The notes under the pieces were generated by a model. It saw only the letters and a list, made by a program, of their open reading frames with translations, was not told where the DNA came from and did no database searches. A program made the translations under genes and the position numbers. From Owenia fusiformis (Eukaryota; Annelida; Polychaeta; Sabellida; Oweniidae): DNA of 64,000 bases. Position 1 is the stretch's first letter. Each line of letters opens with the position of its first letter. Below are positions 57,275-64,000 of the stretch, one piece after another. The stretch lies in the NCBI GenBank assembly GCA_903813345.2, contig CAIIXF020000001.1:1986001-2050000 (forward strand), given 5' to 3'.

Positions 57275-60200
57275 GTACTAAATCCCTTTCTTTGTATTTA
57301 TCGGTATGAACTTTTTTATCTTTCTGCATTTTAGTTAGCACCTTGAAGATTTCATTTAAGCTCTTTAGGTCCCATTTTTAGTTTGCTTGAATTAGAATAT
57401 TTCTTCTTTGATAGTTATAGAGTAAATTCAAGAATATAGAACAGTCTTATAGTTTCAAGATTGTTTCTTTAGATGATTAGTTGATTGAATGATTGCTTGA
57501 TTTTTCATTGTTTTCTGCATGATGACTTCACTATTGTAGGCCACTCTTCCAACGAATTGACAAGTCACATTGCTAAGCATGATAAGGATGAGATCAAACA
57601 TGGTAATTCACCCGCCTCTGCAAATAACAGAATGACCCATCCCTGGCTAATAACATTTATGTACTTGCATGCTAACAGTACATTATACCTATGTGTTATA
57701 CCCCCTAAAATGACTAATTGAATTTCAGGTCCCCATACTAATAATAAAAATGTATTTGGATGTCACGGGTAAACAATAATATGATGACCTTGCTAATACC
57801 TGAATAAGGGACCTGTCAACATTGGCTAACAACTGATCGAGGGATCAGTCAACATCTCCATGGAAAGATTAGTTTTCATAATTGACATTATTATAATGAT
57901 TACTTACTAACTTTTTAATTTTTCAGATTCATTGGAACATAGTCTTCACATTATGGTTCATTGTTTCATATTTATTATATTTTGTACCCATAACAGCCCA
58001 TCAGCATTAAAAGCTATTACAACTTTGACCTACATCTTTAAAATCATAAAATAACATTAAGTAACAATTATTTTATTGTGACATGGAACTAATTGATAGA
58101 AGTGAGTTAGATACTGATCTGGTTATGGAAATAAAATATATTTAATCATAGAACAGATTTAAAAAGTATAAAGACATTCTTATAGTATTAAGTACACAAG
58201 AAGACAATATATGATAATATGTGGCGTTCAATTCATTATTTATCAGGGCATGCAGAAATCGCATCTCTTAGTTAAGGCTGAAAGTCTGCAGTTGTACATA
58301 CCATCATATAAACAAAGGGAAACATTTAATTCATGTTCATTTTATGTATTTACAGGGAACTCTAAATTCCACTTCAACTCTCACATGAACTCCCACTTTG
58401 AACATAGATGTCCCCACTGTGACTACACATCTCGCACTGAAGGTCGTTTGAAGCGCCACATCAAAGATTTCCACAGTGATGACCCACCAGATAGCTTTTC
58501 TGGACAGCCACGTCACATCGTGCGTACTCCTGGACGACCCAAGGTGTTCCGTTGCAAGCAATGTGAATTTACATCTGTAGATAAGGTATGACTAAACATA
58601 AATAATGGCCTTGTGTTTTTTTTCTATTTCGTCACTATATAATTACTGTGTACTTTACCTTATTATCCCCCACAGTAATTTCTTTTGTTTACTAGTTTTT
58701 CTTTGCATTATTTATATGAATCATATCAATAGTTATGAAGTATTAAAAACCAGTGTCTTATGAAATATATCTTTTGTGATGCAAACCAAAGCAATTAAAT
58801 AATAAAATTGTAATTTTGTGTGATTGTAGATTGAGTTTTGGGAGCATTCACGTAAACACATCAAGGCAGACAAGGTCCTCCAATGCCCCAAGTGTCCATT
58901 TGTCACCGAGTACAAACATCATCTAGAGTACCATCTACGTAATCATTTTGGATCTAAGCCGTTCAAGTGTCCAAAATGCAACTACTCATGCGTGAACAAG
59001 TCCATGTTGAACTCCCATCTTAAATCGCATAGTAACGTATACCAATATAGATGCGCTGATTGTACCTATGCTACCAAATACTGCCACAGCCTGAAGTTGC
59101 ATCTCCGCAAATATAACCACAAGCCAGCCACAGTCCTGACCACCGATGGCAGTCTACCCATGGATGGATCCGGTGATTTCAATCTTGTTGCTAAGCGTGG
59201 TCCCCCTAGAGGACCCAGGGGGATGAAGTCGGGCCAGGAGAGCAAGACGCCACCCCAAATGCCGATACCACCTGCAGGGTTAATGAACATGCCACAGATG
59301 TCAAAGGTTGTCCCACCTCACATGAACGCAAGGGTTGGTGGTATGATGCCTCCATTTTGGAACTTGATGCATATGAATGGGATGGCCCCTCCTCCCCTGA
59401 TCCCCATGCCTGGTATGATGCATCCATCCAATGAGAAGATGTTCGCAAAGTTGGCCGCCTCGTTACCTCTCAAATGCACCGTATGTGAGTTTGTTGGTGA
59501 ATCCCGTGAATCCCTCACTGAGCACATGCTGAAGGTACATGCAGCCGGTGAGAATTCAGATCTCCTGCGTATGTTTAATGTCTCCTCTGATTCGCTGATG
59601 GAAGAAGCCAAGAAGGCTGCAGAGATGGCAATCAAGACTGAACCCAAAGATGATGGTCCCACCCCCATGAAACAAAGCCCTGAGTCTATGCACCATCAGG
59701 CATCTCCTCGTGATGGCAGCTCTGCTCCCCATCTGTCTCCCCATGCTATGTACAGGTCCCCACCAATGGAGGCAATGCGCCACCATCTTCCAAGTGGAAT
59801 CACGGGTCTCAACAGTGAACTTGAAAGCCTGGCCAGAATGACCATGCAGCTCACAAAGGCAGAACCTAGAGCCCGACTTCCCATCCCTCAGCTACCTCCC
59901 CACATGATGCAGCAGCAACGTAGCCCTGCCGCCCCCATCCAAACCCCTCGTCCTCAGACCAACAGTGAGGCACCACTAGACCTGACAGCCAAGCCCAGAG
60001 ATGATGAACAGCCTTCCCCACGCCAGCCACATGATGATCAACCATCACCTAGATACCCACATGACATGAGGCACCAGCAGGAGACATACAGTTCAGGTGA
60101 TACATCTTTTGCTGCACATATGCTTGGCTTAGAGGGTTTGAAACGGGCTAGAGTAGAGGAGAAAGGTGGCATGAGTGAAGGGGGTGCTGGTTTTAATTCT

Positions 60201-61052
60201 GCTTCTTCTTCGGGGCTTGCTTCGCCTCCAGCTCGCAAACGCTCCCGCAAGGGAAAGGCTTACAAGCTTGACACGCTCTGCTTACGTCTTCAAGAGCGTG
60301 GTACTAACTCTCCCGAGGCTTCAGGTGATGAAGAGCCCCAGGATGCTGCTTCTGCTTCAGCTAGTCATAGTTCTACTAGTCAGACTAACACCACCATTCA
60401 CGCATCTAATCAGCCCTCTGCCATTTCAGGTTCAGAGGCAGAGTCTGACTCCAAGCCAGCCAACACCAGCTCTGATGAGCCTATTGATTATAACGAGATT
60501 CACAACAGTCTCAGTCAATTGAACAATGAGTCCCCAGAGGTTGGTGAGAAATTCAACCTTGCCCCTCGTGCGGCTACCAGTATTCGCAACCCCCTCTCCA
60601 TCAAGAATGCCCCCAAAGAGCCCAGCGCTGAGGAAAGTGCCGCTGAGGCTGCTGCAACTGAGGTCAAGCAGCACTATGATCATCGCAAATCTATGATCAT
60701 GCGCCACAAGGAGACAGAGGCTCCCATGAATGGACATCCCCACTACCCTCACACCCACCCCCATCTGCCACCACAACATCTCCAGAGGGAGCCACCAAGC
60801 ATGGGTGACGTGAATCAGAACCTGCATATGCTGTTAGCATCCAGTAAATTCCCCAATGGATTCCACCCAGCCAAGAATGGTGGTCGTTACGAGTGCTCCT
60901 TCTGTCACCTTGCATTCTTGGACTGTGTCATGTACACCATGCATATGGGTTACCATAGCAACAGGGACCCATTCCGATGTAACATGTGTGGGGTTCACAC
61001 CAAGGACAAAGTAGAATTCTTCTTACATATAGCAAGAGCTGCCCATGCGTAA
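56392..61052 (+). CDS. hb: Hunchback transcription factor (spliced, four coding exons)
   Basis: Coding parts are 56392-57274, [57540-57602 optional], 58356-58585 and 58830-61052, giving 1111 residues without the small exon and 1132 with it. C2H2 fingers (1111-residue numbering) are at 288-308, 313-334, 361-381, 390-410, 418-438, 446-468, 587-608, 1060-1080 and 1088-1110. The consecutive middle block (residues 361-468, with [17 protein letters not shown] and ATKYCHS) and the terminal pair (MHMGYH then RCNMCG) are the hunchback signature; the terminal pair is the dimerisation-type CF domain shared with Ikaros. Other features are four 12-residue repeats (124-171), a PLDLT motif of the CtBP-binding type (753-757) and a basic RKRSRKGK stretch (840-847), a likely nuclear signal. 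Hunchback is a nuclear DNA-binding repressor/activator in axial and neural patterning. ATG 56392 has G at -3, but the exon is open upstream, so a longer N terminus is possible. Confidence 0.95.
56761..56904 (+). repeat. hb: Coding tandem repeat, 4 x 36 bp (12 residues each)
   Basis: Residues 124-171 are four consecutive copies of H-[DA]-Q-S-x5-Y-x-[37 protein letters not shown] and [12 protein letters not shown]. The DNA copies have diverged at many sites while H, Q, S, Y and K are kept. This suggests either constraint on the peptide or a moderately old duplication. Confidence 0.9.
57540..57602 (+). CDS. hb: hb optional 63-nt exon encoding an alternative finger-1 helix
   Basis: Acceptor CTATTGTAG (AG 57538-57539) and donor ACATG|GTAATT (GT 57603) bound a phase 1-1 exon of 21 residues. 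Joined to exon 1 it gives C-x2-C-x12-H-x3-H exactly (CHLCSYSG, then [13 protein letters not shown]). Joined on to exon 3 it leaves that exon's [13 protein letters not shown] as a second helix without its own Cys pair. Skipping it also gives a perfect finger with that second helix. Both forms are in frame. It is most likely a cassette exon that changes finger-1 specificity. I infer splicing from sequence alone. Confidence 0.65.
57603..58355 (+). other. hb intron between optional exon and exon 3
   Basis: AT-rich, about 750 bp. I looked for an additional Cys-pair exon that would complete a second finger and found none. Confidence 0.7.
58356..58585 (+). CDS. hb: hb coding exon 3 (fingers 1b, 2 and start of 3)
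   Basis: After acceptor ATGTATTTACAG, two bases complete a Gly codon. The exon then encodes [13 protein letters not shown] (helix of finger 1), finger 2 ([18 protein letters not shown], residues 313-334), a Pro/Ser linker, and the Cys pair of finger 3 ([11 protein letters not shown]). It ends at donor ATAAG|GTATGA in phase 0, splitting finger 3 between exons. Confidence 0.95.
58830..61052 (+). CDS. hb: hb coding exon 4 (fingers 3b-9 and C terminus)
   Basis: Acceptor GTGTGATTGTAG leads in phase 0 into [10 protein letters not shown], completing finger 3. Fingers 4, 5 and 6 follow with almost no linker. Next come a Met/Pro-rich region, the isolated finger 7 (CTVCEFVG..., 587-608), a long Ser/Pro/His-rich region with KTEP (a possible sumoylation-type IKTEP sequence), PLDLT and RKRSRKGK, and the terminal finger pair. 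The stop TAA is at 61050-61052. The 740 codons form one large open exon with composition clearly unlike the flanking DNA. Confidence 0.97.
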
Positions 61053-61277
61053 CTTTGTTCACCTTGCACAATGTAGACTGGACTAAGTCAAATCAAATGA
61101 CTGATATGATGGGACATTCAACTGTTATTTATATGAAGGAGCTGCCAAAAGAATTAATATTATAAACATTCATCTTAACTGACACTTAGGTGCTTGATGG
61201 TGTCAAGATGCTCGATGGTACAGATTGCTTGTTAGGCTACAGTGAATTAAAAAGCAGTGTTTCTATGCCAGAAAATA

Positions 61278-61285
61278 TGTATATA
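61278..61285 (+). promoter_or_regulatory. Pumilio element TGTATATA
   Basis: Perfect match to UGUANAUA with the preferred UAUA core, 28 nt before another perfect site. Confidence 0.55.
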
Positions 61286-61305
61286 TTCTTTATAATAGAA
61301 GAACA

Positions 61306-61313
61306 TGTAAATA
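61306..61313 (+). promoter_or_regulatory. Pumilio element TGTAAATA
   Basis: Perfect UGUANAUA match, paired with the site at 61278. Confidence 0.55.
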
Positions 61314-61925
61314 TAACGTAGGCTCTCTCCCTTTAAAGCATAGATCTTTGCCTTTTCTAACTGGGTCAAAGTGAGTACAGTAAAATATACAAGTACATGT
61401 TTTAATTCAGCTCTCAAAATGCAGTCTGAAAAGGTGAGAGATCCACTCAGTTATTTAATCAAGTGGCCTATTGCATCCTGTAGTCTGCCCCTTTGCTTCA
61501 TGTTTGCCATAAGTTATAGAAATTAGTCATCCAAGCTGTAATTTTCATTCCATGGGTCCGTAAATGACGCATGTTTACGAGTATGAAAATATCACGAAAC
61601 ATTGTTTATTTAGATAGCCATGTTATTGCTGCCACCGTATGATATGTAATTACCATAGTGCATAGTGTAGTGTAGACATACAATTGTATTTATAGTGTAT
61701 TTCACTCATGTTTTAGTGTTCTTATGTATATCTATGAACAGGTAACATATGTATAATTTAATCCATAATTGAACAGATAAGTTTAGACATATTGTTGGGC
61801 ATAGTGAATTTGATGTATGCTTTCGCTTTATGATTCACAATTTTGATCGAAATGAAGTTAACTGGTTTAAGCATTACCCGGTGGATGTTATAGCATTTAA
61901 TATGCTAATTGATGTATTTCTACAT

Positions 61926-61933
61926 TGTAAATA
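61926..61933 (+). promoter_or_regulatory. Pumilio element TGTAAATA
   Basis: Perfect UGUANAUA match, preceded by CAT so that an ATTGTA box-B-like string is also present. Confidence 0.5.
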
Positions 61934-62319
61934 GTAGAATTAGTTCGCTTGTTAGGTGTTCTTTAGTAAATGATAAAAAGTAAAATTGCAGAGTCATAAA
62001 TGTAGTTGTACAATGATGAGCAAGACAGAAGCGATGCTTACCTTAATGTTGCTTATTTCGTAGCTTTGTAAGCGCTTTTAGTATCTGTTAAACATTGAGC
62101 ATCTATTTAGCTCCAGTCAAAATTGTTCGGGAAAATGCAGGAATGATATGGAAAGATTACATGCTCAATTTGAAAATTCAGAAGGGAATTGTTGAGTGGT
62201 TTAACATTTTGAGATTGCTGAATATGTACGTTGTGAAGACAATGCAATACCACATAGCATTACAAATCAATCATGCATTATATTTTTATTGACAAATCTA
62301 TTGTACTTTTGTACATAAA

Positions 62320-62327
62320 AGTAAATA
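62320..62327 (+). promoter_or_regulatory. Pumilio element TGTACATA
   Basis: Perfect UGUANAUA match. It is the same octamer variant (UGUACAUA) found in the fly hunchback Nanos response element, with an ATTGTA a few bases upstream. Confidence 0.55.
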
Positions 62328-62576
62328 TTATTGAGACAGATATTATGTCTTGTGAAAATTGTATCACATTTGCACCAATGTCACGCATTTTGTGCAATAC
62401 AAATTGAAGATCTCAGTGTAATAGAATAAGACCCAATTGAGCTTATTAAGATTCTCTATCACTTTACTGTCTCATTTAATTGTTAGTGAAAACATTTTAC
62501 AAATTAGCATTTATGGATTTTAATTCCCGATTCCTTTTTCACACATTTAATAAGTAATCAGCATTAATTTATTTTT

Positions 62577-62584
62577 CTACCTCA
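62577..62584 (+). promoter_or_regulatory. let-7 8-mer site CTACCTCA
   Basis: Full complement of the conserved let-7 seed (nt 2-8) plus the A opposite nt 1. First of two such sites. Confidence 0.7.
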
Positions 62585-62841
62585 AATTCAACCTCAAATC
62601 CATCTTGTACACATTTCTAGTTTTGATTTTTCATAAATTTTCTTGAGGTCTTCGCACATTTACTGAAATTACCAAAGTATTTTCTATTTAAATGATACAT
62701 TTATTGTACATGTTCGGATCATGTATTTATGACAAACCAACAACAGTGAAAACTGACATAATATGCGCTTTCAAATAGAATATTTTCATGTCTTAATTTA
62801 TTATAGTCCCAAGTATGTAGTCATATTAAGCTCATGTTATG

Positions 62842-62848
62842 TCAGGGA
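62842..62848 (+). promoter_or_regulatory. lin-4/miR-125 7-mer-A1 site TCAGGGA
   Basis: Complement of miR-125 nt 2-7 plus A opposite nt 1; nt 8 is not paired. It lies 20 nt before the second let-7 site. Confidence 0.4.
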
Positions 62849-62867
62849 TCACTAGGTTTAAAATATT

Positions 62868-62875
62868 CTACCTCA
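62868..62875 (+). promoter_or_regulatory. let-7 8-mer site CTACCTCA
   Basis: Second perfect let-7 8-mer, 291 nt after the first. Confidence 0.7.
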
Positions 62876-63022
62876 CAACAGTATTGACGATTTGCATCTT
62901 TACACATTCAGCATTATTTTGTAATATAGTACTTCCTTATATGGAATAATTACCATATTAGGAAAAAAGATGACATCCATATAAGGTATGAAGATTGAAT
63001 GTAGGTTTAGGTAAAAATCATA

Positions 63023-63030
63023 TGTAAATA
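63023..63030 (+). promoter_or_regulatory. Pumilio element TGTAAATA
   Basis: Fifth perfect UGUANAUA match in the 3' UTR. Confidence 0.5.
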
Positions 63031-63511
63031 GTATCTGGGAATTCTGTACAGTTTGACGTTTAGATTACAGGGATTGAACCGGTGCCGTAAAATGAACAAA
63101 CCAACATTAGGTTTATTGTAAATTGTCTTAATTGAACTCATGTATTTTTGAGTGATTCTTATGAAATCTACATAAAATAGTTGCATTTACAGTACAAGCT
63201 ACAATTCCAAGCAACTATTTCCTGTATATTTTATACAGAACTGTATATTGTACCATATTTATTATATAGCTATAGTTTTCTCAAACTTTCATAATCATTA
63301 CAGTATATTGACTTGTAGAGAATCCATCTTAACATGCAACTGAAGCAATATTGATAAAGAAATGACATTTTAGCTTATAAGTATTGTAATTTGATGGCGA
63401 TCACCTAAAACCATATACTCATTAATTTATTGTTATCTTCTACTTTTGAAGTTTGAATAACTAGTATATTCTGATCAGTGTAGAAAGTGTATGTTAAATG
63501 GAAGTAAATCC

Positions 63512-63517
63512 AATAAA
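63512..63517 (+). terminator. hb: Polyadenylation signal AATAAA of hb
   Basis: Canonical hexamer followed about 25-45 nt later by a T/GT-rich stretch (TTGTTTTTATTGTTGTTTG), the expected downstream element. Cleavage is likely near 63530-63540. Confidence 0.75.
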
Positions 63518-63535
63518 TAGTCATGTATAAATTAT

Positions 63536-64000
63536 ATCATTTGTTTTTATTGTTGTTTGTTTTCCATAGTCATGAATTGTATATTGTAATAGACAGTATA
63601 GTCCAGTTACACCCCCTCAATAAGTTCAAATACCATACTCGTGTATAAAGGATAGTCCAGTTACACTCCCCTCCATAAGTTTGGTAACCCTGATTCCTTT
63701 TAAGGACTATTTATGTTTGAAGATTAATTCAAAAAAGCAGAAAACACCAACAGGCTTAATTAAAGGTACACTCCTTCCAACTCCATTGCTTTATTTATAT
63801 GGTTGTTGAAACCTATTATCACGGGATGTCATCGCCTGATTTGGTCAATGTTAGGGAGCAGGTCGTTTTTACAATAAATTTCAATATTTTCACACAAAAT
63901 ATTTTTTTACTGAAAAACTGCTCATTCGCAGAGAAAATGTACTAGCACATGCAATGACAATGTCAATCACGCTTCTGTACGAAATTCGGCGGAAGTCTTT
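63536..64000. other. Downstream flank
   Basis: Nothing coding is seen. It contains a two-copy tandem duplication with a 54-bp period. Confidence 0.6.
63598..63694. repeat. Two-copy tandem duplication, 54-bp period
   Basis: ATAGTCCAGTTACAC, then a C-rich string and ATAAGTT, occurs at 63598 and again at 63652, with a few substitutions. Confidence 0.8.

Follow-up and report, generated by a model that had tools for sequence, protein, structure and literature searches.

The hunchback-family zinc-finger gene hbl-1 of Caenorhabditis elegans has a 3' UTR that carries let-7 sites and is named as a direct target of let-7 in the available part of PMC3597506, and this module resembles the hunchback (hb) locus described here. 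The present locus differs from it in belonging to another phylum, in carrying two let-7 8-mers only and no convincing lin-4/miR-125 site, and in being known from sequence alone. The worm gene has more let-7 sites than hb has here, and its founding papers are reportedly those of Abrahante 2003 and Lin 2003. In worm and mouse, let-7 and miR-125 jointly target lin-28 and lin-41, and this co-targeting is conserved, according to the available part of PMC4979967; hunchback has 0 occurrences in the text of that paper. The genome studied here is similar, in that lin-28 and lin-41 both carry let-7 8-mers and lin-41 also carries a miR-125 8-mer. A further point of comparison is chinmo of Drosophila, a zinc-finger gene of the BTB type. 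Like hb, chinmo encodes a zinc-finger temporal identity factor, and its 3' UTR has sites for the let-7 and miR-125 of the let-7-Complex; unlike hb, it is a different zinc-finger gene in which several sites have been tested experimentally (PMC4979967, available part). The initial annotation of our locus had also linked let-7 and miR-125 to the control of hb itself in flies, a link that we did not find in the parts of the literature examined. Likewise, there was nothing on let-7 sites in hb in the available parts of PMC521178, PMC3562263, PMC2861627, PMC2916846, PMC7390627, PMC9116403, and PMC8022929, and a search of the openly licensed PMC literature by title and start of abstract gave no report of let-7 sites in a lophotrochozoan hb among the matches listed.

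The window, by which we mean the whole 64-kb stretch of DNA that was analyzed, probably comes from a spiralian, Owenia fusiformis, and contains a gene that, judging from its predicted protein, we take as single-copy hunchback. The last coding exon (58830..61052, + strand; 740 codons plus the stop) encodes the middle zinc fingers, a long linker, and a C-terminal finger pair and ends in a TAA stop at 61050-61052; its start near 58830 is a splice site judged by eye. The middle fingers were identical to those of fly Hb at 76/99 residues, by far the best match in the genome, and the runner-up match to the finger block in a search of the same genome was 42% identical. The C-terminal finger pair cannot separate Hb from Ikaros, given that it matched fly Hb (29/54) and Ikaros (31/53) about equally. 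The name hunchback depends on the comparison with fly Hb, since a Pfam search returned general C2H2 models only and a PDB search returned other finger proteins only. When viral contigs were scanned with the finger exon, one pattern match and no relative turned up.

Downstream of the stop, the probable 3' UTR of hunchback spans 61053..63530 (+ strand), with its end inferred from an AATAAA at 63512. The let-7 8-mer seed site CTACCTCA is present at 62577..62584 and again at 62868..62875 (both + strand), as had been claimed, and these were the only two copies on either strand of the window. The first site is highly accessible, its unpaired probability of 0.94 being near the maximum for the UTR, which favors a let-7 function; the second has an unpaired probability of 0.22, which places it at the 77th percentile of the UTR. 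A let-7 6-mer, ACCTCA (62591..62596, + strand; unpaired probability 0.70), begins 14 nt past the start of the first site. With 1.38 copies of CTACCTCA expected in the whole window and at least two found in 37/100 shuffles, it is the placement of the sites and not their number that is unusual. Within 61053-63530, 0.013 copies were expected from an order-1 Markov model, 0.016 from base composition, and 0.027 from the window-wide rate, a range that brackets the earlier hand estimate of about 0.02. The Poisson probability of at least two let-7 8-mers in the UTR is thus about 9e-5 (0.013 expected) to 3.5e-4 (0.027 expected).

The two 8-mers could nevertheless be chance words of an AT-rich 3' UTR that have no regulatory effect. 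This is a rather unlikely explanation in our judgment, and it draws on three observations. First, 155 8-mers are present in two or more copies in the hb UTR, and CTACCTCA is one of them. Second, when 38 microRNA families were compared on this UTR, the chance that any of them would reach two 8-mers was 0.09. Third, neither 62577 nor 62868 offers let-7 good supplementary 3' pairing, given that the duplex energies of -13.0 kcal/mol (site 1) and -13.8 kcal/mol (site 2) were weaker than 97% and 93%, respectively, of 500 control draws in which the flanks were taken at random from the UTR. The pairing is therefore seed-only, and the description of the sites as perfect let-7 sites stands for the seed 8-mer and fails beyond it. 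Supplementary 3' pairing is not needed, however, for a canonical let-7 seed target. Against the chance explanation, let-7 alone among the 38 families had two 8-mers in the hb UTR, with miR-92 and miR-33 having one each, and let-7 is the family that was foreseen from worm hbl-1; in view of the any-family chance, the case for let-7 partly depends on this foresight. In addition, CTACCTCA ranked second among the 155 words by the ratio of observed to expected counts, behind only the overlapping word TCTACCTC.

The occurrence of let-7 8-mers in two other timing genes of the same genome, with none in the control flanks, also argues against chance. We chose lin-28 and lin-41 as textbook targets of let-7 prior to any inspection of their flanks, while hb was selected for its sites, and the test was therefore run without hb. 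We located lin-28 on contig C11 with LIN28A as the query, as two exons, one cold-shock and one CCHC, separated by about 1 kb; the cold-shock match includes a TAG that lies ahead of the conserved stretch and is probably intronic. After its stop, lin-28 has a let-7 8-mer at +767 and let-7 7-mers at +592 and +1180, and the first AATAAA follows at +2984. On contig C3, one NHL gene was 74% identical to TRIM71 and scored 467 bits, compared to 114 for the next. After its stop, this lin-41/TRIM71 gene (C3:30302000-30311900) has a let-7 8-mer at +518 and two miR-125 sites, a 7-mer at +22 and an 8-mer at +170, and its first AATAAA follows at +2340. Further let-7 8-mers past the first AATAAA, at +3514 in lin-28 and +7385 in lin-41, were left uncounted. 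The transcript ends of these two genes are no better established than the hb end, since earlier ATTAAA words lie in both flanks (lin-28, +27; lin-41, +91 and +177). As controls, we used the 3' flanks (2,478 nt after the stop) of 40 other C2H2/NHL genes of the same genome, which were hand-picked and not random; four of the 40 flanks were shorter than 2,478 nt, and one (L031), which lacked an in-frame stop, was measured from its first base. A let-7 8-mer was found in 0/40 control flanks, a let-7 7-mer in 5/40, and a miR-125 7-mer in 4/40, and all 151,782 bases of the control stretches, with both strands and coding sequence included, held three let-7 8-mers. Without hb, both timing genes had a let-7 8-mer (2/2 versus 0/40 controls, Fisher P 0.0012), and two 8-mers were seen where the expected number was 0.054 to 0.057 (P about 0.0014 to 0.0016). 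With hb included, the comparison became 3/3 versus 0/40 (Fisher P 8e-5), or four let-7 8-mers where the expected number was 0.067 to 0.084 (P about 8e-7 to 2e-6). The presence of a let-7 8-mer after the stop of both lin-28 and lin-41, as opposed to 0/40 controls, is the new result of this analysis.

The genome also encodes the ancient miR-100/let-7/miR-125 cluster. In a search of 498 Mb in 525 contigs, twelve of them large (32 to 62 Mb), a let-7 precursor was identified at C10:10549662-10549738 (67 bits against a cut-off of 53.5), and its mature let-7, TGAGGTAGTAGGTTGTATAGTT, is unchanged. The sequence AACCCGTAGATCCGAACTTGTG, which we take to be miR-100, starts 291 nt upstream of let-7 on the same strand and lies in a fold-back. 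About 7 kb downstream, at C10:10556680 and again on the same strand, is TCCCTGAGACCCTAACTTGT, presumably the first 20 nt of miR-125, in a hairpin of -35.7 kcal/mol. The cluster (C10:10549377-10556703) is intact in order and strand. We located miR-125 by the 11-mer TCCCTGAGACC, which had 31 + 21 matches in the genome compared to 59 + 52 for the reversed pattern, and examined the copy in the cluster; given that it is not commoner than its reversed pattern, this 11-mer alone proves nothing, and the miR-125 call rests on the position in the cluster, the length of the 20-nt match, and the hairpin fold. The Rfam lin-4 model RF00052 had no match in the genome, including at the miR-125 locus, and an Rfam scan of the 64-kb window returned nothing at gathering scores. 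Pairs of CTACCTCA with a start-to-start distance of 283 to 307 nt were sought across the genome, which gave 94 + 154 matches versus 45 + 47 for the reversed pattern. Among the matches listed, nearly all pairs on contigs C1 to C3 appeared by eye to be tandem arrays, the exceptions being the hb pair and C1:23388341, and the pair counts are therefore unusable as a null. Arrays with CTACCTCA in many units and spacings of ~43 to 87 bases by eye were seen, among the matches listed, at C1:7362107-7363807, C2:19214170-19216583, C2:34960413-34965574, and C3:4858978-4861111; if transcribed, such arrays could titrate let-7.

The initial annotation had connected hb with both let-7 and miR-125, the latter on the basis of the word TCAGGGA at 62842, which is indeed present there as the one copy in the UTR. 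This 7mer-A1 site (62842..62848, + strand) begins 26 nt upstream of the start of the second let-7 site, and a joint action of the two microRNAs, with 62842 and 62868 cooperating through co-transcribed microRNAs, would be conceivable. The spacing falls within the range of about 8 to 40 nt over which microRNA sites cooperate, and let-7 and miR-125 lie in one cluster. The miR-125 duplex at 62842 (-16.6 kcal/mol) was more stable than roughly two thirds of 500 control duplexes, and the one copy of TCAGGGA in the UTR compares to 0.04 expected from the composition of the UTR, or about 0.13 from the window rate. However, the UTR has no miR-125 8-mer or 7mer-m8, and the lone 7mer-A1 lies in a paired region (unpaired probability 0.04, 29th percentile). 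The window as a whole has six copies of TCAGGGA compared to 6.73 expected. A 7-mer without an 8-mer was found in the hb UTR for 13/38 families, including miR-125; the miR-125 7-mer also occurs in the control flanks counted above, and lin-28 of the same genome has no miR-125 7-mer or 8-mer in the 3 kb after its stop. We therefore regard joint targeting as doubtful. The let-7 half of the proposal was borne out by the statistics, by the let-7 gene in the genome, and by the 8-mers of lin-28 and lin-41 against 0/40 controls, while the miR-125 half is weak, and the sites of hb make no convincing case for targeting by miR-125; lin-41 appears to be the better let-7/miR-125 co-target of the two. As a third partner from the cluster, miR-100 was dropped because the hb UTR has no miR-100 seed site.

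Any action of let-7 on hb would depend on where the transcript ends. From the stop to 63540, AATAAA occurs once, at 63512..63517 (+ strand), and a T- and GT-rich tract, seen in the sequence, comes next. This is a probable textbook poly(A) arrangement, from which we infer that the hb transcript reaches about 63.5 kb. Both let-7 8-mers sit in the final 40% of the UTR as delimited by this single AATAAA. In the 2,459 nt upstream of 63512, AATAAA was seen 0 times compared to 2.2 to 2.8 expected, and the word is present on the + strand in 21/22 other blocks of equal length from the window; given that the control permutation AAATAA is likewise missing from the hunchback UTR, this absence lends the long UTR weak support. 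An ATTAAA at 61246, inside the putative UTR, could give rise to a short hb form without the let-7 sites. That the transcript stops before 62577, for example at this ATTAAA, or has several ends, such that most of the mRNA is without the sites or only a long form carries them, is improbable in light of the lack of any AATAAA from the stop to 63512 and the GT-rich tract behind the one found there. Just past the probable poly(A) site, ATAGTCCAGTTACAC was seen by eye to occur twice (63598 and 63652; span 63598-63666, + strand).

Signals other than microRNA sites are also present in this UTR. The motif TGTANATA, presumably of the Pumilio type, occurs five times (61278, 61306, 61926, 62310, and 63023; + strand), whereas 0.9 to 1.2 copies were expected, and at least five were found in 1/40 control flanks. 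Given that the prototypical target of Pumilio is fly hunchback, according to the available part of PMC6357968, the Pumilio-type motifs in the hb UTR may equal the let-7 sites as a regulatory signal.

Collectively, we consider it likely that this is the UTR of a spiralian hunchback and that let-7 represses the hb mRNA through the two 8-mer seed sites at 62577 and 62868. The 6-mer near the first site might assist them, and miR-125 may make a small contribution at 62842, which is the weak link. As let-7 rises late in development, Argonaute loaded with let-7 would lower the output of hb, and the lowered hb would in turn bring an early hb-dependent state to its end, in the manner of C. elegans hbl-1. 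This model presumes that the cells expressing hb also contain let-7, and it presumes the repression itself and its timing as well. If the sites act, hb would work like hbl-1 and is a candidate addition to the known let-7 circuit. Since lin-28 and lin-41 also look like let-7 targets, hb would be one of three timing genes under let-7 control, and the presence of let-7 sites in hb and the two other timing genes fits an old developmental clock, short of proof.

The proposal of an ancestral bilaterian timing circuit goes too far. A match between the worm and this spiralian would date the circuit to the protostome ancestor at the oldest. Sites of the 8-mer type are readily gained, and independent gain in worm and spiralian is thus possible. 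We hold only tentatively that the protostome ancestor already had a timing module in which let-7 controlled hunchback, lin-28, and lin-41, and that nematodes and spiralians have both kept it. If this is true, the module could, in an annelid whose larva is free-living, time the end of larval states or of early neural ones. Control of a hunchback gene by let-7 is documented in a nematode, and the spiralian sites, together with those of lin-28 and lin-41, make it directly testable whether this control is an invention of worms or is old.
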